DNA from: a candidate division WOR-3 bacterium | GTDB taxonomy: Bacteria; Hydrothermota; UBA3072 | Length of the DNA stretch: 64,000 bases | NCBI GenBank assembly: GCA_039804165.1 | Contig: JBDRZZ010000001.1 | Span: 158,643-222,642, forward strand | Direction of reading: 5' to 3' | Shown here: positions 3,143-64,000 of the stretch, piece after piece | Layout of the letters: every line of letters starts with the position of its first letter | Position numbering within the stretch: position 1 is the stretch's first letter | Made by a program: the position numbers and the translations under genes | The notes under the pieces: generated by a model | Databases searched by the model: none | What the model was told of the DNA's origin: nothing | The model's input: only the letters and a program-made list of their open reading frames with translations

Positions 3143-3191
3143 GATTTTTATTATTTGGATAAAAAATTAAGTCAATCAAAAAAGTTCCAAC

Positions 3192-19984: not shown

Positions 19985-21493
19985 ATGGTGAAAAATAAGT
20001 TAAGGTTTTTTCGTATTTTTTTTGAAATTTCTTTTTTTGTTTTTATAACCTCTTCTTTTTTTTGTTTTCCTTTAAGAGGGATACCTTCTAAAACTCAAAT
20101 AGTTCCTATTTTATTTTCTGTTTTTAGTAAAGAGTTTTTCTTAAGTATTTTTTTTGTGATTTTTTTTATTTTTGTGACTTTCTTCTTCGGAAGAATATAT
20201 TGCTCATTTTTTTGTCCTTTAGGAGGCTTTCAGGATATTTTTATAAGGGTTGGGAGATATATTAAAAAAAATAAATTTAAATATCAGAAGCCTTTGCTTT
20301 TTTTCCGTTTTACCATCCTTTTTTTCTTACTTATAAGTTTGTTTTCTGGTAGTTCTTATTTAATTAGTTGGCTAGATCCCTATAGTATTTTTGGAAAAAT
20401 GATAAATTATTTAATAAAACCAATTTTTGTTGTGATTAATAATTTGGGAGAGTTTTTTCTTAGAAAGAGAGGGTTTTATTTTTTTCGAATATTGGATTTT
20501 CCTGACTTTAATCTTTTTATTATCTCAATCCTTGGGTTAATTTTAGGTGGAGTTATATATTTTTCTTTAAAAGAAGGAAGGTTTTATTGTAATTCTATCT
20601 GCCCTCTTGGGACTTTCTTAAGTTTGGTTTCTTTTCGGTCCTTATGTAGAATAGAGATAGATAAATTAAGATGCACTTCTTGTGGAATTTGTGAATTCAA
20701 TTGTAAGGGAAGCTGTATAAATTCAAAAGAAAAAATAATTGATGATTTTTCTTGTATAAGATGTTTTAATTGCCTTTCTATATGTCCTTTTTCTGCGATT
20801 AGATTTAGATTTGTCTCATTTATAAAGAAGAGAAAAGAAAAAAATATAGAAAGAAGGAAATTTATTCTTTATTTGACTTATATTTGTTTTTTAGGAATTA
20901 ATTTGTTTTTGAGAGAAAAAGGCAAAAAACTTTCTAATTCTTCACCACCTACTCCTCCTGGTAGTATAAGTCTAAAGAGATTTCTTAGTAAATGCACTTC
21001 CTGCTATCTATGTGTAAATAGATGTCCAACAGGTGTCCTTCGCCCTTCTTTATTTCAATACGGGATTTTCGGAGCTTTCGTTCCTTTTATGGATTTTAGA
21101 AGTGGTTATTGTTCTTATGAGTGTAATGAGTGTTTAAATATATGTCCAACCAATGCAATTTTACCTTTTAGATTGGAAGAGAAAAAGAAAATTCAAATAG
21201 GAAGGGTTAATTTCACTCAAGATTTTTGTGTTGTGTATAAAAACAAAACCAATTGCGGAGCCTGTGCTGAGATATGTCCTACAGAAGCCATCAGAATGGT
21301 TCCATATAAGGGTTTATTATCAATACCTTTTACAGAGCCCTCAATTTGTGTTGGATGTGGAGGATGTGCGTTTGTTTGCCCGGCAACTCCAAAAGCAATT
21401 GTTATAGAGACAAACCTCGTACATAGAGAAGTAAAGAGCTTTGAGAGATCAAAGAACAAAAAGGAAAACAGAAAAGAAGAATTCCCCTTTTAA
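19985..21493 (+). CDS. NapH::NapG-like membrane polyferredoxin fusion
   Basis: Predicted electron-transfer protein at the inner membrane. The N-terminal part (about 1-200) has roughly four to five hydrophobic helices and two NapH-type CxxxCP motifs (YCSFFCPLG and YCNSICPLG). Then follow two 4Fe-4S motifs (CTSCGICEFNC; CIRCFNCLSICP), a further hydrophobic segment introduced by RRKFILYL, and four more cluster motifs (CTSCYLCVNRCP, CSYECNECLNICP, an NCGACAEICP cluster and CVGCGGCAFVCP). The second half looks like NapG with a remnant Tat signal fused to NapH. No nap nitrate reductase genes accompany it; the partner is the Tat DUF362 protein. Confidence 0.82.
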   Translation: MVKNKLRFFRIFFEISFFVFITSSFFCFPLRGIPSKTQIVPILFSVFSKEFFLSIFFVIFFIFVTFFFGRIYCSFFCPLGGFQDIFIRVGRYIKKNKFKYQKPLLFFRFTILFFLLISLFSGSSYLISWLDPYSIFGKMINYLIKPIFVVINNLGEFFLRKRGFYFFRILDFPDFNLFIISILGLILGGVIYFSLKEGRFYCNSICPLGTFLSLVSFRSLCRIEIDKLRCTSCGICEFNCKGSCINSKEKIIDDFSCIRCFNCLSICPFSAIRFRFVSFIKKRKEKNIERRKFILYLTYICFLGINLFLREKGKKLSNSSPPTPPGSISLKRFLSKCTSCYLCVNRCPTGVLRPSLFQYGIFGAFVPFMDFRSGYCSYECNECLNICPTNAILPFRLEEKKKIQIGRVNFTQDFCVVYKNKTNCGACAEICPTEAIRMVPYKGLLSIPFTEPSICVGCGGCAFVCPATPKAIVIETNLVHREVKSFERSKNKKENRKEEFPF

Positions 21494-44854: not shown

Positions 44855-45008
44855 TTTTCAATTTTTTAGTTTTTAAAATCTAAGAAGTTCAAGAAGCTTA
44901 GCAAAATTTTTCTAAGAAGAAGTATTGGTTTCTTAATCCTAATTTCCTAATTATTATTAATTTCTTCTTTAGATTTAACTCTTTTGGTTCAGTATAAAGT
45001 AAAATATC

Positions 45009-45036
45009 TTGACTTAGATATTTTCTTTATTATACT
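45009..45036 (+). promoter_or_regulatory. Promoter of the A2M-pbpC operon
   Basis: TTGACT at 45009-45014, a 16-bp spacer and TATACT at 45031-45036; the leader of about 22 nt carries AAGGAGG before the ATG at 45065. Confidence 0.65.
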
Positions 45037-45064
45037 GAGCTTTGTAATAAATAAGGAGGAATTG

Positions 45065-48000
45065 ATGGAAAAGAATAATAGAAAAAAATCAAAAAAAACT
45101 ACTAAGAAATCAAAAAAATTAACAAAGATAAAGAGAGACAGGAAAAAAATTGTAGAAAAATTTAAACAGAAAAAAGTGTGGATTTTTGCAACTGTTATTA
45201 TAGGCTTAATATTAATTGCATTTTTGTTTTATCCGAAGATAAAAATCAACAAGAAACTGATACTTTCCAAAGAACCGGTAAGCGGAACAACTATTTCATC
45301 CAGAGAACTTACGGTAACATCATACAATCCCAAAGGTGAAACATATGGACAGGTTCAAATAAGTATAAATTTTAACAATCCTTTAATACCCCTTGCTACT
45401 TTAAGTGATGCAAAGAGAGATTCGATTTTGAGTCATTTCAGTCTTGAGCCTGCGGTTGAAGGCAAATTTAGAATTCTTGGAACTTCCGAAGTTGTTTTTG
45501 AACCTGAACACAGCCTACCAATGTCAACTCACTATATTGTGAAAGTTAAAAAGGGTCTTAGAGATATTTTCGGAAATGAACTTAAGGAAGATTTTACCTG
45601 GGAGTTTAAAACTCCATTGCCTCGAATAGAAGTCTATCCATCTGACAAATCTCATCATATTGACCTTGACCAAGAAGTTAGAATTACGAGTAACACCTCT
45701 TTAGATACAAGCTCTTTGAAAAGTAAAATAGAATTTTTCGAAACTGAAACAGAAGAAAAAGTTGTATATAAATTTCTCGAAGCAAAAGGGAATCCAAGAG
45801 ATGAAGAAGATATTGGTATGTATTACCTGAGATATAATTATATTCTAAAGCCAGTAAAAAATTTGAAAAAGGATACCAAATACACAGTCGTGCTTCATTC
45901 TGGAATTAAGACAAAAAGAGGGAATAGGCTGACAGAGCAGGAATACTCTTCGACTTTCAGAACTTATCCTCCATTTAGATTTATAGAGACCTCTTTCTGT
46001 GGACATTGTGGATATAAGCTTACAACAGTTCCTTATCTCTCTTTTACCAATACTCCTGATTGGGAAAGTGCAAAAATAAATATCTCTCTTTCCCCAAAAG
46101 GAGAAAAAAATCCATTGAGTGAATACTCTCCCTGTTGGGATGACTATTATTATTTTCTTGGACTTAACGAAGAATATCTGGAGCCAAAGACTAAATATAG
46201 AGTAATTATAGGTCCAGACCTTATAGACATTTATGGTCAGAAAATAGAAAATCCCCAAGTAACTTCTTTCGTAACTGGAGAACTGACTCCGAAGATGTGG
46301 GGGCCATCTGGTTATCAACTTATAACACCAAATATAGAGCCAAAACTTGGGGTAAAGACTGTTAATATAAATAAAGTTTTCTACGTAATGCAGAGGTTAG
46401 AACCTAAAGATATTCTTGTTAGAGAGAGACTTTCTTCTTACTACATTATAGATGAATTGATAAAAAATCTTAAGGTAAAAGAATCTTATAGGGATATAGA
46501 ATTAAATGAGGAAAAGGTTGGGAAAATATATTTTGACCTTGCTCCATATCTAAGAGGAGGAAAATTTGGTGCGGTTGCCTATAAATTCACCTCCCCAGAA
46601 GTATTGTGCTATTCTCAACCGATAAGATTTAATGGGTTAATTCTCCGAACGAACATTGGAATATACACTCAGTTTCATCCGACAGGGGGCATTGTTAAAT
46701 TAAATCAGCTTACAGATGGGAAGCCTATTGCTGGGGCAAAAGTTAAAATATACAGAGAGGATGACCTACCAAGACTTGAAAAAATCTGGGATCTTATCAC
46801 AGATAAAAATATAGATAGAATATCTCCCTGTTATGTGGGGGCAACAGATGAAAAAGGAATGCTTATCCTTTCTGCTTCTGAGATGCAACGATGTACAAAA
46901 AGAAGGATAACTAATAAAGTGTTAAATGAACTTTATCCACCTGAGGCAGACCCTGATGATATTCTATACGACATTGAAAAATATGGATTCGCTGAACCTC
47001 CAACACTTCTTATCGTAGTAGAAAAGGATGATGATTGGACTTTTATCCATACGGAGGAATATGGGAATCCATCCCTTTGGGATTTTGGAATAGAACCTGA
47101 CTGGGAAGCAGAAAGGCCTATTTGTCGTGGAGTGATATTTTCAGATCGTCATCTGTATCGTCCAGGAGATACTGTTCGATTAAAGGGAGTCGTAAGATAC
47201 CTCCTTTATGGAAAGTTGCATACAGGGGAAGGATTATCCTTTACAGTGAAAGTAAGAGACCCACATGGAGGAGAAAAGGAGGTTACAGAGGTTAAGGTTA
47301 ACGAATTTGGAACTTTTAACTTTGAAATTCCAACAAAAGAGGATCAGCCTCTTGGTTATTATTATATCACTGCCGAAAACATAAGATACAACTTGAAAAT
47401 TCATGGTAATTTTCGTCTTGCTGAATTTAGGGTTCCGGAATTTGAAGTCAAGATGAATGTGGGTAGAGAGATAGCAGTTCTGGGGGAACCCATTGAAATT
47501 TCATGGGAAGGAAAATATTATTTTGGATCTCCTATGGGAGGTGCACTCTCTTCTCTTAACATAACCCGTAGAAAAACGGTCTTTATCCCAAAAGGTTGGG
47601 AAGAATTTTCTTTTGGAGTTCCGGATTACTTACTTGAGAGGCGTTCTTCTTTAAGTGCTACATATCTTAGAGAAACGAAAAAGCTGGATAAGAAAGGTAA
47701 GGGAGTTAAAACAATTATTTTTAGACCAGAAGATGTTCCTTGTTATATGAATTATCTTTTCGATGTGGAAGTTACAGATGTTTCAAATCAGACATCTTCA
47801 GCAAATAAAAGCATTACTGTTTTACCTGATAGAAGATTAATTGGCATAAAACTTAATAATTGGATAGTAGCCGCAAAAGACACATTTAAGGTAGACGTTA
47901 TAGTTTCTTCTCCAGAAGGAAAGGCTCTTTCTGGAATACCTGTAACTGTAAAGTTAATTAAGAGAGAATACCATTCTGTTAAGACGCAAAACCCGGATGG

Positions 48001-51000
48001 TGAATTCAGAGTTGAAAACACAATGATAAAGAAAGTTGTTGCTATAAAAGAAATAATTAGTGATGACTCTCCAAAAGAAGTTAGTTTTTCGCCTGAAGAG
48101 GCAGGTTCTTACGCTGTATTTGCAGAGCTAAGGGATAATCCGAATAGCGGAACTTCTGCAGCGACTTCGGTTTGGGTAGCAGGAGAAAGTTATGTTCCCT
48201 GGGAAGAAACAGGAGAGGACAAACTTGAAATCATAATGGATAAGAAGGAATACAAAGTTGGAGATACGGCAAAGGCTTTCATAAAATCACCTTTCCCTCG
48301 TGCAGAACTTTTCATCACGGTTTCGAGAGAAAAGATTTTCCTTAAAGATTCAAAAGAAATTAAAGGTGGAGGTTTTACCTATACTTTTGTTGTAACAGAA
48401 GAGATGCTGCCAAATGCCTATGTTGGGGCTGTGCTTTATCGTCTTGGAGAACCCATTGTTCCTGTGGAAGAAGAAACAGGGAAGCATCTTGAGAAGATTG
48501 GATTTTCGATATTTAAAGTCTCAATTGCCGATAGATATCTCAATGTAAAGATAACACCATCGAGCAAAAAACTCAGGCCTCAAGAAGAACTAAATGTCAA
48601 TGTAAAAGTCACCCGTAAGGATAAAAAAGGACACAGGAGTGAATTGACTGTTATGGTCGCAGATGAAGCTATTCTTTCTTTAACCGGATACACTCCTCCT
48701 GACCTTGTGAAACTTGTCTACGCTCATAGAGGTTTATCCGCGAGAATAACAGACAATCGCCCATTTATAATAACAAAAGAGGAACTTCTGCAAAAAGGTT
48801 ATGGTTATGGAGGAGGAGCAGAAGCAATGGTTGGAGAACCCATAGTTCGAAAGAAATTCCTGAGATTGGCTTATTACAATCCGAGTCTGGTTACAGATAA
48901 AAACGGCGAGGCGTCTTTCCGATTTAAACTCCCGGATAATTTAACGACATGGAGAATAATGGTTGTTGCAGTTGGAGAGAATAATTTTTTTGGATATAAG
49001 GATGAGAAAATCGTTGTAACTCAACCTTTTGTTTTGCGTCCTGTTCTTCCGAGATTTGCTCGTCTTGGAGACAGTTTCAAGGGAGGAGTTGCAATCACGA
49101 ATTCTACAGAGGCAGAAGGCTCTGTTAAGGTTTCTGCTGAAATAGGAGGGAACTCGTTAATATTCAAACAGGATGAACCATTGATAAAAGAAATCTCTTT
49201 AAAGCCAGGACAATCAAAATCGGTTCTTTTCCCCTTTGAGGCAGTTAAGAAAGGGGAAGCAATTTTAAAGTTTACAGCCTATTTTACCGGAACTTTTGGT
49301 GGAAAGGAAATAAAAGAGTCTGATGCGGTTGAGACAAAACTCGAAGTTCAGGAATTGCTAACAACTGAGACTGTAGTAGCTGTTGGAGAAACAAAAGATA
49401 AAGTAGAGGAGGCAATAAAAGTGGATGGGAGTGTTCGAAAAGATATGGGTGGTCTTGAGATAACTCTTTCAAGCACAGCTCTTGCTAATATAGGAGAAGG
49501 AGCAAAATATCTTGTTGAGTATCCCTATGGATGTTTAGAACAGACTTCAAGTAAACTCCTTGCTTTAATTATGCTTAAATATCTCTCTGATAAATATGGA
49601 TTTGAGCTTAAGGCAGTGAAACCAGTAGATAGAGTAATAGAGGCAAACATAAGAAAAATTCTTTTGATGCAAAATTCGGACGGAGGGTTTAAATTCTGGC
49701 CAACAAGTCATGAATCGGATTGTTACCTTTCTCCTTATGTTGCTTATCTTTTCAAAAGGTCAGAGGAATTGGGATACAAGATTCCGAGTGAGGTAAAGGA
49801 AAGTCTCCTCAAATTTTTTGAATATACCTTGAGAAATCCCTGTTATACTTTCTATTCCTGGCAATCTCTTGCAGAATACAGAATTAACATCTTGCTTGGT
49901 ATGCATTACCTTGGGAAAACCGATGAGACTTACTTTGAGGAATACTTCAATCGAAGAAAGGAATTAAGTTTTGGAGCGCAAATTTCTCTTGCTTATCTCC
50001 TTTATAAATCGGGAAGATGGGGAAGGGAAGCAAAAATACTCTTGAAAGAGATCAAAAATGGAATATTCGTTACAGCACAAACCGCTCATTTCGAAACTCC
50101 GAAAGACTTACCTCCTTCATGGTTATTTATGTCTTCTCCTGTAATAACGACCTCCGAGGCTATAAAGTTATTTCTCGAAATGGAACCTGAAAGTGAATTC
50201 ATTTCCAAATTTGCCCGTTATATTCTAAATGCAAGGAAAAATGGAAAATGGAGATACACCTACGAAAATGCAAAAGCAATTGATGGGCTTGTTGAAATTT
50301 CTCTTAAGAGGGAAACAAAGCCTCCAAAATACTCGGCTGATGTTTTTCTTGCAGGAGAAAAGGTTCTATCGCATATGTTCAAAAGCTATCAGTATAAACC
50401 TTTTGAGGAATTTGTTCCCATATCGAAAATACCTTCTGGGCTTAATAAGATTATCCTTTCCAAGAAAGGGGTAGGATATCTCTATTATGTTCTTTCTTAC
50501 TCTTATAGATTAAAAGGGACTCAGAGCTCACGAAATGAAGGTCTTACGATAAAAAGAACTGTGAGAAATTTAAATACAGGCACACTTATTGGTGAATATA
50601 AGAAAGAACCTCTTCCGATGGTTAAAGTAAAAACTGGGGATATCCTTGAAGTGGAGCTTGAATTCAAAGTGCCACAGACTTCTTACCATCTCGTAATTGA
50701 TGATCCATTACCTTCAGGCCTTGAGGTGATTGATGCTTCACTAAAGACAACCTCCATAAGATACAATATTAAATCGCAAGGAACAGTTACAAGAGGAGGT
50801 TCCTGGAATCCGATAAATCATACGGAGTTGCGAGATGACAGAGTTGCACTTTTTGCGGACGAAGTAAGACCAGGGATATATAAATATAAATATCTACTCC
50901 GTGCCACCACTTCCGGTTATTTTCTCTGGCCATTTGCAAAAGTTAGTTTAATGTATGAACCTGAACAATTCGGGACTTGTAGCGAGGGATTTATAGAAGT

Positions 51001-51013
51001 AGTGGGTGAATGA
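45065..51013 (+). CDS. Bacterial alpha-2-macroglobulin (thioester type), membrane-anchored
   Basis: A 1982-aa protease-trapping protein of the periplasm. The start follows AAGGAGG; an upstream in-frame start (44984) precedes the promoter and is rejected. A Lys-rich cytoplasmic tail (1-36) and one transmembrane helix (about 38-56) replace the lipobox usual for E. coli YfhM. SbsA/Ig-like strands, repeated MG domains (about 700-1250) and the A2M core (YNPSLVTDKNGEASFRFKLPDNLTTWR) follow. The thioester motif CLEQ (Cys1490) is intact, as is the alpha-toroid behind it. Its pairing with pbpC is the classical arrangement, taken to protect the wall after breaches. Confidence 0.93.
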   Translation: MEKNNRKKSKKTTKKSKKLTKIKRDRKKIVEKFKQKKVWIFATVIIGLILIAFLFYPKIKINKKLILSKEPVSGTTISSRELTVTSYNPKGETYGQVQISINFNNPLIPLATLSDAKRDSILSHFSLEPAVEGKFRILGTSEVVFEPEHSLPMSTHYIVKVKKGLRDIFGNELKEDFTWEFKTPLPRIEVYPSDKSHHIDLDQEVRITSNTSLDTSSLKSKIEFFETETEEKVVYKFLEAKGNPRDEEDIGMYYLRYNYILKPVKNLKKDTKYTVVLHSGIKTKRGNRLTEQEYSSTFRTYPPFRFIETSFCGHCGYKLTTVPYLSFTNTPDWESAKINISLSPKGEKNPLSEYSPCWDDYYYFLGLNEEYLEPKTKYRVIIGPDLIDIYGQKIENPQVTSFVTGELTPKMWGPSGYQLITPNIEPKLGVKTVNINKVFYVMQRLEPKDILVRERLSSYYIIDELIKNLKVKESYRDIELNEEKVGKIYFDLAPYLRGGKFGAVAYKFTSPEVLCYSQPIRFNGLILRTNIGIYTQFHPTGGIVKLNQLTDGKPIAGAKVKIYREDDLPRLEKIWDLITDKNIDRISPCYVGATDEKGMLILSASEMQRCTKRRITNKVLNELYPPEADPDDILYDIEKYGFAEPPTLLIVVEKDDDWTFIHTEEYGNPSLWDFGIEPDWEAERPICRGVIFSDRHLYRPGDTVRLKGVVRYLLYGKLHTGEGLSFTVKVRDPHGGEKEVTEVKVNEFGTFNFEIPTKEDQPLGYYYITAENIRYNLKIHGNFRLAEFRVPEFEVKMNVGREIAVLGEPIEISWEGKYYFGSPMGGALSSLNITRRKTVFIPKGWEEFSFGVPDYLLERRSSLSATYLRETKKLDKKGKGVKTIIFRPEDVPCYMNYLFDVEVTDVSNQTSSANKSITVLPDRRLIGIKLNNWIVAAKDTFKVDVIVSSPEGKALSGIPVTVKLIKREYHSVKTQNPDGEFRVENTMIKKVVAIKEIISDDSPKEVSFSPEEAGSYAVFAELRDNPNSGTSAATSVWVAGESYVPWEETGEDKLEIIMDKKEYKVGDTAKAFIKSPFPRAELFITVSREKIFLKDSKEIKGGGFTYTFVVTEEMLPNAYVGAVLYRLGEPIVPVEEETGKHLEKIGFSIFKVSIADRYLNVKITPSSKKLRPQEELNVNVKVTRKDKKGHRSELTVMVADEAILSLTGYTPPDLVKLVYAHRGLSARITDNRPFIITKEELLQKGYGYGGGAEAMVGEPIVRKKFLRLAYYNPSLVTDKNGEASFRFKLPDNLTTWRIMVVAVGENNFFGYKDEKIVVTQPFVLRPVLPRFARLGDSFKGGVAITNSTEAEGSVKVSAEIGGNSLIFKQDEPLIKEISLKPGQSKSVLFPFEAVKKGEAILKFTAYFTGTFGGKEIKESDAVETKLEVQELLTTETVVAVGETKDKVEEAIKVDGSVRKDMGGLEITLSSTALANIGEGAKYLVEYPYGCLEQTSSKLLALIMLKYLSDKYGFELKAVKPVDRVIEANIRKILLMQNSDGGFKFWPTSHESDCYLSPYVAYLFKRSEELGYKIPSEVKESLLKFFEYTLRNPCYTFYSWQSLAEYRINILLGMHYLGKTDETYFEEYFNRRKELSFGAQISLAYLLYKSGRWGREAKILLKEIKNGIFVTAQTAHFETPKDLPPSWLFMSSPVITTSEAIKLFLEMEPESEFISKFARYILNARKNGKWRYTYENAKAIDGLVEISLKRETKPPKYSADVFLAGEKVLSHMFKSYQYKPFEEFVPISKIPSGLNKIILSKKGVGYLYYVLSYSYRLKGTQSSRNEGLTIKRTVRNLNTGTLIGEYKKEPLPMVKVKTGDILEVELEFKVPQTSYHLVIDDPLPSGLEVIDASLKTTSIRYNIKSQGTVTRGGSWNPINHTELRDDRVALFADEVRPGIYKYKYLLRATTSGYFLWPFAKVSLMYEPEQFGTCSEGFIEVVGE

Positions 51014-51070
51014 AGTTAGGATATAGGGAAAATTACCTAGATATAGATTTTAGATCTATTTTTGAAAGGG

Positions 51071-53368
51071 ATGGCTTTTAGAACTATAAATAAGAGAAAA
51101 TTACAGTTGATTATTCTTGGATGTATACTTGCTATAATTTTTGGCTTTCGTTTTACCCCTTTACTTATTCCCATTAGAGAAGAAGACCTCAAGAGAAAAA
51201 GTTTCCATTCCGTGAGATTCTATGATAGAAACGGGAAATTGTTGCAAGAAGTTCTATCAGAGAATTCGACTCACTCGGTTTCTGTTGATTTAGATAAGGT
51301 TTCGCCTTATTTTATTCAGGCAATTATAGCTTCTGAAGATAAAAATTTCTACTATCATAACGGTGTTGATTATAAGGCGATATTTAGAGCGTTCTTACAA
51401 AATCTAAAGGCGAAAAAAGTGGTTTCTGGTGCTTCAACTATAACACTTCAACTCGCAAGGATGGTTAGACCTGGGAAGAGAACTTTCCTTAAAAAGATAA
51501 AAGAAGCATACTTTGCTTATCGCCTTGAGGCGGGATTAAGTAAAGAAAAAATCCTTGAGGCTTACGTAAATAGAATTCCTATGGGTGGAAATTTGTACGG
51601 TGTTGAAGCAGGTTCCAAAGCATATTTTGGTATTTCGTCTTCAGATTTAACTCTTGCCCAGGCTAGTTTTTTAGCTTCTATTCCCAATTCACCAACCCGC
51701 CTTAATCCTTATAAAAATTTGGAAGAAATAAGAAGAAGACAGAGATACATTCTTGAAAAAATGGCAAAAGGAGGGCTGATAGAGGAAGAAAGAATAGAAA
51801 GAGTCCTTAAAGAAGATATTTCTTTATTGCCTCAAACAGCATCTTTTGCCGCGCCACATTTTGTTTTTACACTCCTAAAAGATCTACCAGAAGAAGTTCA
51901 AAATGTCAGAGTCCCGATTGATCTTGAATTGCAAAAAATGGTTCAGGAACAGGTAAATAGAGTGATAAAGGCCCTTTCTCCTTTTAATGTAACTAATGCG
52001 GCTGTTATTCTACTTGACAACTTTACCGGTGAAGTTCTTGCCTATGTCGGTTCTGCAGATTTTTTTGATACAGAACACAATGGAGAATACGATGCTGTCC
52101 GGGCCCTTCGTCAACCTGGCTCTACATTAAAACCTTTTTTATATCTTCTTGCCTTTGAAGATGGTTTTACACCTGCCACAGTAGTTTCGGACATTCCAAC
52201 TCACTACAGGATGCCAACAGGGATATACAGCCCCAAGAATTATTCTAAGGAATTTTATGGACCAATTAGAGTTCGTGAAGCCTTAGCAAATTCTCTAAAT
52301 GTTCCTGCTACGAGAATTCTTGTAAAAGTGGGAATAGATAGATTTTTAAATCGCTTAAAGGAATACGAATTCAATTCTCTGGATAAAGATGCAGATTACT
52401 ATGGTGTTGGTCTTGTTCTTGGAGGGGGGGAGGTTTCTCTATTTGAACTTGGAAGGGCTTATATGTGTCTTGCTAGACTTGGAAGTTTTATACCTATTAA
52501 AGAAATTCTTGAAATAGATGGAGAAGAAAAAAAATACCCTGAAAGTAATAAAATTATCTCTCGACCAGAATTGAATTATTTGATAGCTGATATCTTAAGC
52601 GATAAATTTGCAAGGACCTCTGAATTTGGTTTTAATTCTGTGCTGAATTTCCCATTTCCCTGTGCTGTAAAGACAGGAACTTCTTTTCGTTTCTGCGACA
52701 ACTGGACTGTTGGCTTTACCGAAGATTATACTTTGGCTGTTTGGGTTGGTAATTTTGACCATACTCCGATGCAAAAAGTCTCAGGAGTTTCAGGAGCAGG
52801 CCCTCTTTTTGCAAATATTATGTATCTCCTTTACAGTAGAAAAGATTTTCCTGAAAAAAAACCTTTACCTGAGGAACTTACTAGAGTTAAAATCTGTCCT
52901 CTTTCTGGTAAGAAACCAACTCATTATTGTCCGTCTGTGGTTGAAGAAATAATCCCTATAGAGAATCTTATTGCGTATTACAAAGACAGTTGTGATATGC
53001 ACAGTTTTGATAAAGGGAAAGTTTACACTGTTTTACCTGGTAAATACAAAGAATGGGTAGAGGGTTTTGAGGCAAAGAATACCTCAAATAAAATCATAGA
53101 GGAGGAAAGATTTAAAATAGTCCATCCCAAGGATGGAGCAATCTTTTACCGATTATCCAATGTAAAGCCTGAATATCAGTCCATAAAAATAGAACTTACA
53201 ACCACAGAAGAAGGAAAAGTTCACTGGTTTTTAAACGGAAAACCATTAAAAGAAACCACTGGAGAACACAGCTTTCTCTGGCAGATAAAGCCTGGAAATT
53301 ATTGCCTTCAGGCAGTATCAGATAAGGATAAAGATTTGTCAAGTCAGGTTAATTTTATTGTTAAATGA
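51071..53368 (+). CDS. pbpC: Penicillin-binding protein 1C (GT51 + transpeptidase)
   Basis: A bifunctional peptidoglycan synthase anchored by one N-terminal helix (about 13-31). The GT51 domain contains the catalytic ASEDKNFYYHNGVD and ASTITLQLARM. The transpeptidase has the SxxK serine (Ser351 in PGSTLKPF), SLN (NSLNVPATR) and KTGTS. The C-terminal BiPBP_C domain (about 660-765) marks PBP1C. It starts 57 bp after the A2M gene. The ATG at 51071 and a TTG three codons upstream are both possible; neither has a well-spaced Shine-Dalgarno. Confidence 0.94.
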   Translation: MAFRTINKRKLQLIILGCILAIIFGFRFTPLLIPIREEDLKRKSFHSVRFYDRNGKLLQEVLSENSTHSVSVDLDKVSPYFIQAIIASEDKNFYYHNGVDYKAIFRAFLQNLKAKKVVSGASTITLQLARMVRPGKRTFLKKIKEAYFAYRLEAGLSKEKILEAYVNRIPMGGNLYGVEAGSKAYFGISSSDLTLAQASFLASIPNSPTRLNPYKNLEEIRRRQRYILEKMAKGGLIEEERIERVLKEDISLLPQTASFAAPHFVFTLLKDLPEEVQNVRVPIDLELQKMVQEQVNRVIKALSPFNVTNAAVILLDNFTGEVLAYVGSADFFDTEHNGEYDAVRALRQPGSTLKPFLYLLAFEDGFTPATVVSDIPTHYRMPTGIYSPKNYSKEFYGPIRVREALANSLNVPATRILVKVGIDRFLNRLKEYEFNSLDKDADYYGVGLVLGGGEVSLFELGRAYMCLARLGSFIPIKEILEIDGEEKKYPESNKIISRPELNYLIADILSDKFARTSEFGFNSVLNFPFPCAVKTGTSFRFCDNWTVGFTEDYTLAVWVGNFDHTPMQKVSGVSGAGPLFANIMYLLYSRKDFPEKKPLPEELTRVKICPLSGKKPTHYCPSVVEEIIPIENLIAYYKDSCDMHSFDKGKVYTVLPGKYKEWVEGFEAKNTSNKIIEEERFKIVHPKDGAIFYRLSNVKPEYQSIKIELTTTEEGKVHWFLNGKPLKETTGEHSFLWQIKPGNYCLQAVSDKDKDLSSQVNFIVK

Positions 53369-54251: not shown

Positions 54252-54329
54252 ATGGAAAGAGTTGAATTTATAAAAAAAAGAAAGGAGGTAAATTATGAAG
54301 AGGTTATTGTTGTTACTTACAGTGTTTAG
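54252..54329 (+). CDS. Possible 25-aa small ORF overlapping the next gene
   Basis: An ATG at 54252, 5 nt after AAAAGGAGT, opens a 25-codon frame (begins MERVEFIKKRKEVNY) that overlaps the first 35 bp of the following exported-protein gene in another frame. The good ribosome site and overlap suggest translational coupling, but length and composition prove nothing. It may be spurious. Confidence 0.2.
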   Translation: MERVEFIKKRKEVNYEEVIVVTYSV

Positions 54330-55083
54330 TCCAATTTGGTTCCTTAGAGCTGCGGAGGTTGAACTTTTGGAAGATGAAGTTGCCATTGAAGGTGAAGTTA
54401 TAGAGATAGAGGAAGTTTTGTCGCCTGAAAGTGAAGTTAGAACATTACAAGCGAAGATAAGAACGCAGGATGAGGAAATGGTTGAGGCTCATCTTGGTCC
54501 AGGATGGTTTTTAAATGAAGAGTTGGTAGTAGGGGAAAGGGTAAGGCTTTATGGGAAATTTGAAGGTTACAGGTTGAAAGTGCGAATAATGATAAAGAAT
54601 GAACATAGATATGCTTTTAGAAATGAGAGATACGAGCCTCTCTGGGTAAGAACGAGACTTCATGAGAGGAGATACGTATACGATCCGAGAAAAGAGAAAA
54701 AGATTAAGGGAAAAATAGAATTTTTGTATATTGATGGAAAAGCTCTTAAATTCGAAGCTTTAATAAGAGTTAAGGAAAGAGAAAGAGTGAGAGTTCAACT
54801 TGGGCCAGAGTGGTTCTTGCGAAATAAAATTAGATGTGGAGATGAGATAGAAGTAAGAGGTTCTGAAGTTGATTTTGACGGGGGGAAATTATTGCTTGTT
54901 AGAGAAATGAGAAACCTTAGAAATAGGGAAGAAGTGACTCTTAGAAATAGGGAAGGTTTTCCAGAATGGGTGGGGGAGGAACTCCGTAATAGAGTTAGAA
55001 CTCAGGAAAGAGAAGGAAGCAGGGTAGGGGAAATGCAGAAGAAGAGAACGGAAGAGAAAATACATAAAGGAAAGGGAAAATAA
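54295..55083 (+). CDS. Exported protein with two repeated OB-like domains
   Basis: 262 aa with a Sec signal (1-19). Two units of about 75-80 residues each contain V-x-x-x-LGP-x-WFL (AHLGPGWFL at about 66-74, VQLGPEWFL at about 168-176), followed by a turn and a basic strand (RVRLYGKFEG; EIEVRGSEVD). Such units resemble small OB-fold exported domains (DUF5666-like). The C-terminal 50 residues are highly charged and Arg/Glu-rich. AAAGGAGG precedes the ATG. Function unknown. Confidence 0.7.
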   Translation: MKRLLLLLTVFSPIWFLRAAEVELLEDEVAIEGEVIEIEEVLSPESEVRTLQAKIRTQDEEMVEAHLGPGWFLNEELVVGERVRLYGKFEGYRLKVRIMIKNEHRYAFRNERYEPLWVRTRLHERRYVYDPRKEKKIKGKIEFLYIDGKALKFEALIRVKERERVRVQLGPEWFLRNKIRCGDEIEVRGSEVDFDGGKLLLVREMRNLRNREEVTLRNREGFPEWVGEELRNRVRTQEREGSRVGEMQKKRTEEKIHKGKGK

Positions 55084-58933: not shown

Positions 58934-60508
58934 CTATTTCAGGACCGTTATTTTCTTTGCTACTTCGCTAGAACCTGCTGTTAGTTTGAGTAGATATACA
59001 CCATTTGCAAGATCACTTACATCAAGCTCTGCTTCTTGTGTTCCAGCGTCCTTTACACCCTTAACAAGGGTCTTTACTTCCTGACCAACTAAGTTGTAAA
59101 GCTTCAAGTTCACAGAGCTTCTTGCAAGAATGGTGTATGAAATTTTCGCATTTGAATTAACAAGAGCTGGAGCAGAGAGTTTTACAGCAAGAGGAGCTTC
59201 GGCAACACCCAGAACTGATAATACTGCAGTTCCAAATAGACTTGGATTCTGCCAGGAGTCGTTGCTGTAAGACCACCATTTTAGCATATTTTGACGGTTT
59301 CCACCATCGTTCTCATTTATCTGGGCTTCCCAACCAATGATTTGTCCTTCTTGTAGAGGGAATAAGGGATTTCCATCTTTCTTGAGTGAATCAACTGGAA
59401 TTACTAATTCAAGAGCCCAACCGTCTGAGGTTGATGTCCAGGCTATTGTCCCACCTGATACACTACCAGGTCCAGGGTTTCCAGTCTCTTCGTTATAGAC
59501 ATATCTCCATTGGACATCGTTACCATCATAGGAAGCAGCTTTTTCATTTCCACCATCAAAGTAAATTTCCCAGGAGTCACGTTCCCAAGGATTTTGGTGT
59601 TGAGTGTCTATTGAGTCATCAACAACTTTTCCATAGAAATAGATACCGTCTGCATTCCAAGCAATACGATAATATGAAGAAAGGTCAAATCTTCCTCCAT
59701 CTGGATAGCTTCTTTCTCCACCCACACTCATTGTTATTGCTGGAACACCTTCCCAATCATCATCAAAACCATCAATACTTGCAGGAGGAAGTTCAATATA
59801 TGGTATCTGAAGTTTTACATCATCATTAGCAAGTTTTGCAGTTCCAAATAGACTTGGATTCTGCCAGGAGTCATTGCTATTAGACCACCATTTTAGAATA
59901 TTTTCGCGGTCTGCTCCATCGTTATCATTTACCTGAGCTTCCCAACCAATGATTGTTCCTTCTTGTAGAGAGAATAGCGGAGTACCATTTTTCTGTAGGG
60001 AATCAGCAGGAATCCAAAGTTCAATAGCCCAACCATTTGAAGTTAGTGTTGTTACAAACTCACCAGGTCCAGGGTTTCCAGTCTCTTCTCCATAGACATA
60101 TCTCCACTGGACATCGTTACCATCATAGGAAGCAGCTTTTTCATTTCCACCATCAAAGTAAATTTCCCAGGAGTCACGTTCCCAAGGATTTTGGTGTTGA
60201 GTGTCTACTGAGTCATCAATAACTCTTCCATAGAAATAAAATCCAGGGGTATCTCCATCGACCCAACCTGCAATATAAAAACCGGATAAATCAGCCGCTC
60301 CATCAGAGGGGACTTGATCATCTACATAAACAAACATCCCAACATCTGGAAGATTTGGTGTATCTAACTCTTCATCTAACTCTCCATCAATTATTGGCTG
60401 AATAGCTAATTTTGGGATGTGGAGAACATTGTTAATTGTGCTTCCAGCATTTTGAGCAAAAAGCATTATGCTAATTAAACTTATTATTAATCCTATTAAA
60501 CGTCTCAT
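58934..60508 (-). CDS. Secreted double-CBM9 protein with T9SS-type sorting domain
   Basis: 524 aa with a signal peptide (1-19). Two family 9-like carbohydrate-binding domains (about 30-225 and 235-430) share a 38-residue identical stretch starting DTQHQNPWERDSWEIYFDGG; a conserved WEAQ and KWWS follow in both. The C-terminal sorting domain (about 445-524) has YNLVGQEVKTLVKGV and ends AKKITVLK. No catalytic domain is present, so it is a glycan-binding surface protein. AAGGAGG lies before the ATG. The leader of about 190 nt contains a micro-ORF and a hairpin. Confidence 0.9.
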   Translation of the reverse strand: MRRLIGLIISLISIMLFAQNAGSTINNVLHIPKLAIQPIIDGELDEELDTPNLPDVGMFVYVDDQVPSDGAADLSGFYIAGWVDGDTPGFYFYGRVIDDSVDTQHQNPWERDSWEIYFDGGNEKAASYDGNDVQWRYVYGEETGNPGPGEFVTTLTSNGWAIELWIPADSLQKNGTPLFSLQEGTIIGWEAQVNDNDGADRENILKWWSNSNDSWQNPSLFGTAKLANDDVKLQIPYIELPPASIDGFDDDWEGVPAITMSVGGERSYPDGGRFDLSSYYRIAWNADGIYFYGKVVDDSIDTQHQNPWERDSWEIYFDGGNEKAASYDGNDVQWRYVYNEETGNPGPGSVSGGTIAWTSTSDGWALELVIPVDSLKKDGNPLFPLQEGQIIGWEAQINENDGGNRQNMLKWWSYSNDSWQNPSLFGTAVLSVLGVAEAPLAVKLSAPALVNSNAKISYTILARSSVNLKLYNLVGQEVKTLVKGVKDAGTQEAELDVSDLANGVYLLKLTAGSSEVAKKITVLK

Positions 60509-60766: not shown

Positions 60767-61950
60767 ATGTCCTATTTTAATTCCATAAATAAATGCCACA
60801 TTTTGGGAGTAGAATATGACATTCATATTGAGAAAGAAAGAAAAAGGTTACCTCTTTGTCCAAAAGGAAGTAACTTTGTAAGCATATTCTCTTACCATGA
60901 AATATTAAAAACAAGAAATAATCGATAGTTGGCTTAAAAGAGAAATAAAAGATAATCAAGTAACCATTCTTTTAGTAGTTAGTTATCATCATGCTTTAAG
61001 GCTAAAAAGAGCTTATAAGGAGGAAGGTCTTAGAGGGATTATTTCTAAGAAAAAAGTCGGAAGAAAAGGTATTCCGGACCTTTTGAGAGGTTAACGGATT
61101 TATTCAAGGGAAAATATGGCAATAGATTTAATATTGCCTATTTCAAGAGAAGTTAGATGATTTAGAAGAGATACATTCCAGAGGAGTGGTATCTCATAAC
61201 AATAAATAGATGATGCCACAAATGAATTATTGTTTGCAAAGTTTTCCCTAAAGATACAGCTTTTAACAATATGGAAGGGATAAGGAAAGTTATTGAAAAT
61301 AAAGGTTTTTTATTCTTGTCTATTGATAAAGCATCCCATTTCAAACCCACAAGATATGGAGGACATTATAAAGTGAGTCCTGGGTAAGAAGAGACTCATA
61401 TAGAGAAGATATTAAAGGACCTTGGTATTGTTGTAATACCGGCGAATTCACCCCGGGCGAAAGGGAGGATAGAGAGGGATTTTGGGACTCTTCAGGATAG
61501 ACTTATAAATGAGATGTGGCTGGTAAAGATAAAAGACTATGAGGAAGCGAACACTTTTCTAAAGGATGTATTTTTTTTACTGGAATAAGAGGCTCAAGAT
61601 AAGACCGAGGATAGAAGGAAGTGCTTATAAGAGTGTTTTTGGTATAAATCTTGATTTTAGTATTTACCGTATATAAGGTGTGTCTCGAGCGATGGCACAA
61701 TAAGTTTTTATAAAGAGGAGATATTTCTTCCTCTAACGAGAAGGAAGCTAAATCCGACGAGAAAGGAAGTAGAAGTGGGGTTTTCTGCCGAAGGGACGAT
61801 ATGGGTTTTAAATGAGGGTAAGGTTATCTATCGAACGGAGATATCGGAGGAGAACTCTCTTGTGAAGAGAAACAAAGTAATAGAGGATATTTTGAAGAAT
61901 AGAACATCCAGATGAAAATAGGACATTTATTTATGAAAAAATGTGACATT
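60767..61950 (+). mobile_element. Decayed insertion sequence, ISNCY/IS1202-like
   Basis: Flanked by inverted terminal motifs: ATGTCCTATTTT at 60767-60778 is exactly inverted at 61915-61926, and AATGCCACATTTT at 60792-60804 has a one-mismatch inverted partner at 61938-61950. The region between holds a broken DDE transposase. Family assignment rests on the recognisable integrase-core and C-terminal segments. A further TGTCACC-type motif at about 61970 may be the outermost right end, so the exact ends are uncertain. Confidence 0.7.
60905..61915 (+). pseudogene. Transposase pseudogene (integrase-core, multiple stops and frameshifts)
   Basis: Pieces of one transposase read in order but in changing frames: an N-terminal helix-turn-helix-like stretch (HHALRLKRAYKEEGLRGI), a segment near 61346-61550 with GRYGGHYKVSPG, an in-frame TAA, then IVVIPANSPRAKGRIERDF and GTLQDRLINEMW, the DDE-family core. 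A C-terminal part near 61735-61915 reads RRKLNPTRKEVEVGF. At least five stops or frameshifts interrupt it, so it cannot make an active enzyme. Confidence 0.8.
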
Positions 61951-61965
61951 TATTCCGAAAAATAA

Positions 61966-62228
61966 TAGGTGACATATTGCATGAAAACAACAGATAACCG
62001 TTCGCAGGCAAAGCCGCCCAAATGCAAAATTACAAATAAAAATTCAAAAATGAAACAGAACTTAGGATTCCAAATCCCAACTGTTAACCCGAAACACTAA
62101 ACTCAAAACCCTGATTCACTATTCTTCTCTTTTCCGAAGAATAGAGAAATTTAAGTTTACGGATCTCGCCACCGGTAGATTGAGTTATATTTTCCAATCT
62201 GCCTTCCCTGCCCGTATTTCCTTCACTT
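61966..62228. other. Intergenic region with an orphan RHS fragment
   Basis: Between the IS and the membrane-protein gene. On the minus strand positions about 62120-62212 encode, with one single-base frameshift, REGRLENITQSTGGEIRKLK and FLYSSEKRRI, a near copy of the RHS repeat encoded at about 63750-63845. It is a leftover RHS repeat, not a gene. The 61980-62110 part shows nothing recognisable. Confidence 0.6.
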
Positions 62229-62870
62229 CTACCTACAAATTACTCTTGCAAGGAAAAGATATACGAATATACCTATTTCACATAACAGAAGTATTCGTAG
62301 AACTTTTGTTTTATTTGGCACTTTTTGGGCAATCATAGAAATAATTCTATAGAGTAAAACTACCCAAACCCCCAAAAGTGGACCAAATAGGGTTATATCG
62401 TATCCTAGCAATGTTTCAACTTTAAATATAGAGGATATTAACCAGAAAATACCAAAGACCACCATAAAAAGCATTATGTCCAACGCATCAGCAAACTTTG
62501 TATAAATTGAATTTTTTTCGTCTATCTCATTTTTATGTTTTGAAAATGAAAATCGCATAGTCGTTATATACCCCCAGGTAAAAACAGAAATAAAAAAAAC
62601 TAAACGATACATTTTAGTAGCCAAAAACAAGAGTAATATACCCAGAATGCAAACTAAAATTAACTGTGGAAGGTAAATCTGATTTTTCCAGTATCTTCGC
62701 AGCAAAAGAGGAATTATTAATCCCCCAATTGCTATCGTTCCAAGAACTAATAATAAAGCCTTCCCTATTTGTAATCCTCGGTTATAAAAACCCATATAAA
62801 ACAAAAACAATGTAAAAACCAACCAGCTGAATCCATAAGTGAATATATCGTTAAACTTTGATTTTTTCAT
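62229..62870 (-). CDS. Multi-pass membrane protein downstream of RHS gene, candidate immunity protein
   Basis: 213 aa with about six hydrophobic helices (near 12-30, 36-54, 67-83, 87-103, 126-147, 160-180 and a last one at 192-209). No family is recognised. It starts 60 bp after the RHS stop, on the same strand and with its own AAAGGAGG. In polymorphic toxin loci the gene right after the toxin tip encodes immunity, and membrane immunity proteins exist, hence the suggestion. An unrelated membrane protein is the alternative. Confidence 0.55.
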   Translation of the reverse strand: MKKSKFNDIFTYGFSWLVFTLFLFYMGFYNRGLQIGKALLLVLGTIAIGGLIIPLLLRRYWKNQIYLPQLILVCILGILLLFLATKMYRLVFFISVFTWGYITTMRFSFSKHKNEIDEKNSIYTKFADALDIMLFMVVFGIFWLISSIFKVETLLGYDITLFGPLLGVWVVLLYRIISMIAQKVPNKTKVLRILLLCEIGIFVYLFLARVICR

Positions 62871-62930
62871 TTTCTCTGCTAATCCTCCTTTAATCTATTA
62901 TCTTTTTCTTATTGTTAAAGTTTCTATATC

Positions 62931-64000
62931 TTATTTGTTCCCCATATTCGGAAGAGGGAGTGCATCTTTCCCTATTATTTTGAGTCCGCAAATCGTACAC
63001 ATACCGAAGCATATACCTGAAATTGGATCATCTTTGTGTGGCCAGAGTCGTTCACAAGGTATCGATTTTATACATTCTTTCACACATTGCTTATAGTCAG
63101 GAGCATATTTACATCCAACAAAACACCCAAACAACGCGCCACCTGCACAGGCACTGCAATATAAACAAGGATTAAAAGCTATTTGTACAATTTCACCAGT
63201 TGGATCCAAAATATTAGTAGGGTTATTAATAGCATATATATAAGCGTTTAATGCCTGTGGGCTTTCGACAGATGTAATCAACAAATTTATTTTTAGCCCA
63301 CGACAGAGATTACAATTATTTAAACCCAATTCACCATTTTCTACATCCAACACCGGGTCCTCCTGGGTAAATCTGCCAATAGTAGATGCATAATATCTTG
63401 CTCTCAAATTGTAAAGCCCGGACGGTTCTTCATCCCTTTCCTGCCCGGTATAATAGTAGTGGTTGGGAACATTTTCGGTTTTCTTCCTGAAATTTCCGAA
63501 ATCATCATAGAGATAAAGATTTCTGTAATTACCGGTAGAGTCACAAATCATTGTAATAGACCCCAATCCATCGTGGAAGTATTGATATAGTTTTCCATCC
63601 GAATCTATCCTTCCTACTAACATACCATTAGTATAGACATATTTGGATTTTAAGTCAAGATGGCCGTTGAGTTCGGCTACTGCAAACATTCCGTCGTAGA
63701 CATAATAAGTTGTATCAACTTTGGTTGCAGAACTATCTATCTTCCTTATCCTTCTCCCTTCCGAGGAATACAGGAATTTAAGTTTATGGATTTGTCCACC
63801 TGTAGATTGAGTTATCTTTTCGAGTCTTCCTTCTCTGTCGTAGGAGAAAGTATATCCATCTGTTGCAGTAAGGAGGTCGCCTCTATTGTTGTAGGTATAT
63901 TGTTCCCCGAGTTCGGTTATACTCAACAATCGGTTGTTGTCCGTGTTGTAGATATACTCCAGATGAGAAGGATAACCGATAGCAGTTCTTTCTGTCCTAT
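62931..64000 (-). CDS. RHS-repeat protein with Cys-rich C-terminal tip (5' end outside window)
   Basis: The frame is open to the window edge, so the gene begins beyond 64000; a TTG at 63929 is not a real start. YD/RHS repeats (YTYNNRGDLLTATDG, YDREGRLEKITQS) lead to the RHS-associated core (GLYNLRARYYASTIGRFTQEDP ... AINNPTNILDPTG). After the core, an 86-residue tip carries 11 cysteines (NPCLYCSAC, FGCFVGC, CVKEC, CFGMCTIC). RHS proteins usually encapsulate a toxic tip released at DPxG-type sites; the tip here matches no toxin I know. An unusual insert with NNCNLC interrupts the core. Confidence 0.8.
   Translation of the reverse strand, partial: RTERTAIGYPSHLEYIYNTDNNRLLSITELGEQYTYNNRGDLLTATDGYTFSYDREGRLEKITQSTGGQIHKLKFLYSSEGRRIRKIDSSATKVDTTYYVYDGMFAVAELNGHLDLKSKYVYTNGMLVGRIDSDGKLYQYFHDGLGSITMICDSTGNYRNLYLYDDFGNFRKKTENVPNHYYYTGQERDEEPSGLYNLRARYYASTIGRFTQEDPVLDVENGELGLNNCNLCRGLKINLLITSVESPQALNAYIYAINNPTNILDPTGEIVQIAFNPCLYCSACAGGALFGCFVGCKYAPDYKQCVKECIKSIPCERLWPHKDDPISGICFGMCTICGLKIIGKDALPLPNMGNK

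Follow-up and report, generated by a model that had tools for sequence, protein, structure and literature searches.

A probable toxin-immunity pair with a cysteine-rich RHS tip at a contig end of a candidate division WOR-3 bacterium

The last two genes of a 64,000-nucleotide stretch of DNA from a candidate division WOR-3 bacterium (hereafter the window) are probably a toxin and its immunity protein, and are best read as an orphan member of a subclass of cysteine-rich RHS modules that recurs in the phylum. The locus would be the terminal (3') part of a polymorphic toxin locus of the RHS type, consisting of a shell, a small cysteine-rich tip and a dedicated membrane immunity gene. The first-pass annotation had proposed such a pair, and two lines of evidence now support it: RHS tips and the genes behind them are inherited together at the level of the class in this phylum, and the membrane gene is followed by what remains of an RHS core.

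The module at the end of the contig

The edge of the window is also the end of its contig (C1, 222642 bases), which cuts the RHS gene. Its minus-strand frame (62931-63998) is open at the window edge with 355 codons visible, and the N-terminus lies beyond the end of C1. The parts of the locus are as follows.

63192..63998, minus strand: C-terminal end of the RHS/YD shell, 268 core residues visible (TIGR03696, PF05593, translation)
62931..63191, minus strand: RHS tip with 11 cysteines, putative toxin domain (translation, structure model)
62871..62930, minus strand: spacer with Shine-Dalgarno sequence AAAGGAGG (read from sequence)
62229..62870, minus strand: polytopic membrane protein, putative cognate immunity protein (hydropathy, low-confidence model)
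62117..62212, minus strand: RHS-core remnant, 32 aa with 81% identity to visible RHS residues 54-85
60850..61935, plus strand: decayed insertion-sequence transposase (three-frame translation; family by eye only)

TIGR03696 covers residues 164-233 of the visible RHS product above cut-off (E=1.2e-18), and PF05593 matches it as well (E=3.9e-6). The core boundary reads LNAYIYAINNPTNILDPTG, and the core ends in NILDPTG after an insert that holds an additional CxxC (NNCNLC); profile match and translation thus agree with the boundary and the insert first noted in this gene. Because the insert separates the plug's two DP motifs (DPVL and DPTG), these lie 47 residues apart, and the first of them has no Gly. 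The usual spacing in an RHS self-cleavage plug is about 18 residues (PMC10684867), so that self-cleavage is less certain here on both counts.

Taking the Glu that follows DPTG as its first residue, the tip is 87 residues long and contains 11 cysteines, spaced CxxC, CxxC, CxxxC...CxxxC; the first-pass count had given the same cysteines and a length of 86. With a cysteine background of 0.93% in the other proteins of the window, the probability of at least 11 in 86 residues is 5.5e-10, and the tip is enriched about 13-fold over the window average. A comparable stretch occurs in one other protein of the window, of the 4Fe-4S ferredoxin type (19985-21493). The structural model, predicted without relatives and poor in quality (pLDDT 62), is all-helical with five helices. 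The tip has no CCxxHD or HD motif and no match to a phospholipase A2 (PLA2) profile in Pfam, and no evidence of metal binding was found. A likeness to Vanabin2, a cysteine-rich metal protein, reached a VIA-align Z of 2.2 and was treated as meaningless.

The gene immediately downstream begins 63 nt past the RHS stop on the same strand, its ATG preceded by the strong Shine-Dalgarno sequence of the spacer. It encodes 213 aa with six to seven helices, according to hydropathy and a low-confidence model (pLDDT 59), and leaves little extramembrane sequence. This agrees with its earlier description as a multi-helix membrane protein, and no known family matched it above cut-off, again as first described. 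The RHS and membrane-gene frames are both intact, and the short spacer with its ribosome-binding site suggests that they share one transcript.

Behind the membrane gene lies the 96-nt RHS-core remnant, in the orientation of the visible RHS gene. Such a sequence would be left behind by recombination between RHS cores, and a recombined tip-immunity module is expected to carry one. The module also adjoins the decayed transposase, which retains rve-like residues among many frameshifts and stops. An RHS gene is also present on a second contig, C5, where it encodes a Sec-type signal sequence, DUF6531 and RHS repeats. Its 3' part is identical to the end of C1 over 121 bases, then about 95% identical, until a stop is reached and homology is lost; the C5 copy thus has the shell in common with the window gene and a different, truncated end. 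C1 and C5 represent either two branches of a single assembly graph with a common upstream shell or two copies. Since 121 identical bases are what an assembly branch would leave, a full-length RHS gene is possible.

The genome (95% complete) contains no VgrG (PF05954), and delivery by a VgrG-based type VI secretion system (T6SS) was rejected for this reason. A SprA-type translocon protein is present, and the product of a window gene at 58934-60508 (minus strand) combines a pair of CBM9-like domains with a sorting tail for type IX secretion (PF18962). Elsewhere in the window, a large bacterial alpha-2-macroglobulin (44984-51013, plus strand) adjoins a penicillin-binding-protein-like gene (51062-53368), and a 262-aa protein without a Pfam match (54295-55083, plus strand) consists of two similar halves (repeat HLGPGWFL / QLGPEWFL) and an R/E-rich tail. 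C1 also bears a second RHS gene outside the window, at about 81.5-86.9 kb (L008:3544-8946), with an 1800-aa frame, a different tip containing HAGSRKKDIGGTGSEGCI and a lipoprotein-like gene directly behind. An L,D-transpeptidase assignment for that tip rested on likeness by eye, was not confirmed by Pfam and was set aside.

Searches for relatives of the pair

The tip and the membrane protein are an orphan pair in the databases searched. Neither had a match above cut-off in Pfam, NCBIfam, PHROGs or PADLOC, where PRK02935 (E=0.009) and DUF5693 (E=0.57) fell far below it, and phmmer against the PDB returned nothing for either protein. Foldseek with the predicted structures gave no match under E=2, and the best VIA-align Z was 3.6. 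Nothing emerged either when the window tip was compared by profile with the cysteine-rich tips of two phylum genomes, G074 and G010, and its membrane protein with the partners of those tips.

No relative of either protein was detected in 147 genomes of the phylum, where the weak matches that were inspected proved to be frames with stops or proteins of other families. The same was found for 84,980 species genomes, viral contigs, phages and plasmids, in scans of genome collections and viral sequences that detect close relatives and could let distant ones escape; the sole viral match spans 19 residues. Two other cysteine-rich tips of the phylum likewise had no plasmid relatives. The description of the pair as undescribed therefore stands for the databases searched.

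RHS modules across the phylum

Of the 147 phylum genomes, 25 contain RHS cores above cut-off, often several to a contig or as arrays, and the tip and downstream gene could be read in 38 modules from these stretches. Tips vary between modules behind similar shells. Short cysteine-rich tips (78-145 aa, 6-11 Cys) are found in 12 modules, and the other 26 tips are mostly longer and cysteine-poor (length P=1.4e-5). Cysteines in the core insert accompany 8 of the 12 cysteine-rich tips versus 2 of the 26 others, at least one of which (L074) is a boundary misparse (P=3.5e-4; as the modules come from related genomes, these P values overstate independence and serve as guides, not proofs).

Related tips tend to be followed by related partners. 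The tips of L071 and L076 (genomes G084 and G081) are 71% identical and their partners 70%; for L064 and L076 (G083 and G081) the values are 47% and 42%, and for L093 and L094 (G074 and G010) 35% and 28%, with polytopic partners. Three pairs of cysteine-poor modules likewise combine related tips with related partners, and paralogous tips within L064 (30%) have related partners (40%). Overall, partners are related in 6 of 12 tip-related module pairs, where 0.2 would be expected and none of 10,000 permutations reaches 6; several of the remaining six pairs share a short tip stretch only. Tips and downstream genes are thus co-inherited, and the gene found downstream of an RHS tip in this phylum can generally be taken for the partner of that tip. 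A tip with its partner downstream is the pattern of polymorphic toxin-immunity systems (PMC3482391, PMC10539506).

The nature of the partners says less about the target of the tip. By a hydropathy rule, downstream genes are membrane, lipid-anchored or exported in 36 of the 38 modules versus 23 of 39 other window genes, and they follow tips of every kind, including those with HExxH peptidase-like or CHAP-like sequence. Polytopic partners are about equally frequent behind cysteine-rich tips (7/12) and cysteine-poor ones (12/26, P=0.73). The step from a membrane-protein neighbour to a membrane-targeting tip, taken in the first-pass annotation, is consequently weak and finds no support here. A membrane partner indicates a toxin encountered in the envelope, in keeping with Sec export, but is by itself no pointer to a tip that damages membranes.

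One cysteine-rich module, L073 (G014:C280), offers a slight hint of the target. Its tip, on the minus strand and ending at 3182, contains YYGYWCGDKW...DDLDRCCMEHD with a CCxxHD motif and is phospholipase A2-like at a sub-threshold score (PF05826, E=0.018); the gene behind it encodes a membrane protein of 121 aa with two helices. Independent hints of a lipid or membrane target within the cysteine-rich class are thin, and a membrane-targeting tip in the window is plausible.

Genomes G079, G086 and G090 (L108, L109 and L110) also encode members of the membrane family to which the partners of L087, L093 and L094 belong, but with no RHS gene next to them, and the members in G086 and G090 share a gene neighbourhood. 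They could represent orphan immunity genes, or else unrelated proteins of a common membrane fold. Their occurrence means that such a membrane protein can have another role.

Known systems, proposed mechanism and alternatives

The locus resembles several described systems, yet differs from each. Tse5/Tsi5 of Pseudomonas aeruginosa, a pore-forming Rhs effector and its cognate immunity protein, shares the RHS shell and a plug ending in DPxG, and its tip, to which the window tip may be likened, acts at the inner membrane (PMC10684867). Unlike the window locus, however, Tse5/Tsi5 is tied to a T6SS, and the main text of that source does not mention cysteine. Bacterial Teneurin-like proteins share a large RHS/YD shell, a variable C-terminal toxin and a small immunity gene that belongs to the operon, and in one of them the tip, once cleaved, is linked by a disulfide to the plug of the shell (PMC13018210). 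They have another N-terminal architecture, and the portion of that source drawn on here describes no short cysteine-rich tips. Tox-PLA2 and other lipid-acting tips are short and all-helical with conserved cysteines, and stand behind RHS or other shells (PMC3482391); L073 resembles phospholipase A2, but the window tip lacks both the CCxxHD motif and a profile match. Imm-CdiI and Imm17, the membrane immunity families of polymorphic toxins described in PMC3482391, have two helices, versus six to seven in the window protein, which falls into no Pfam family above cut-off.

Caging and self-cleavage are known for characterised RHS proteins (PMC8636562, PMC10684867), and by analogy the window shell would cage the tip until cleavage at the DPTG plug frees it. 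Export through Sec is suggested by the signal sequence of the C5 copy. Outside the cytoplasm the tip may adopt a small helical fold stabilised by disulfides and, more speculatively, may also be tethered to the cysteine pair of the plug. It would then damage the envelope of a neighbouring cell; an inner-membrane or periplasm-side target appears most likely, though this step is weaker than the others. The polytopic protein would protect the producer and its kin from the tip. Tip and immunity gene would be swapped as a unit between RHS shells, as shown for the class and as the remnant suggests for this locus. The bolder proposal of a distinct phylum subclass, in which the self-cleaving plug has acquired an insert bearing cysteines, a small, helical and disulfide-rich tip remains covalently bound to the shell until it is reduced, redox-controlled release serves as the safety catch and the antidotes are polytopic or anchored envelope proteins, seems improbable at present.

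The state of the locus bears on how much of this mechanism applies. The module could be a displaced, silent or decaying RHS-CT/immunity cassette, its tip lacking a functional full-length RHS protein and perhaps only the immunity gene mattering. The RHS-core remnant and decayed transposase that adjoin it, the arrays of partial cores with tips that are common in the phylum, and the C5 copy, interrupted by a stop and losing homology, speak for this reading. The two intact frames, the strong ribosome site of the membrane gene, at least 268 uninterrupted core residues before the tip and the 121-base identity with C5, which allows a full-length gene, speak against it, leaving this less likely than not. 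A different departure from the toxin-immunity reading sees in the tip a cap with a structural, adhesive or metal-binding role on a surface RHS protein, beside which the membrane gene would be an unrelated neighbour or an anchor. Cysteine-rich patches can bind metal and certain RHS/YD proteins act in adhesion; known toxin domains give no match to the tip, and a related membrane family exists without RHS. A cap is not required to vary behind similar shells or to travel with the downstream gene, however, as tips in this phylum do, and the phospholipase A2-like tip of L073 belongs to the same class, which makes a cap quite unlikely.

A third alternative keeps the membrane protein as the immunity protein and moves the target of the tip away from the membrane, for instance to periplasmic proteins or the cell wall; the antidote would be membrane-bound for no other reason than that it meets the toxin outside the cytoplasm. 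The predominance of membrane, lipid-anchored or exported partners in the phylum (36/38), also behind peptidase-like and CHAP-like tips, is consistent with this arrangement. Against it, the window protein offers little extramembrane sequence with which to bind a soluble toxin, and the polytopic immunity proteins known from pore-forming colicins counter membrane toxins; a non-membrane target is therefore rather unlikely.

Read as a toxin-immunity pair, the window alone contributes a single orphan pair to a large category already known. The recurrence of cysteine-rich tips together with plug cysteines makes a redox-tether mechanism testable. If the reading is true for the subclass, a little-studied phylum would be a reservoir of toxin tips that are small and rich in disulfides, every one accompanied by a membrane or lipoprotein antidote, in genomes that, like this one, have no type VI spike.
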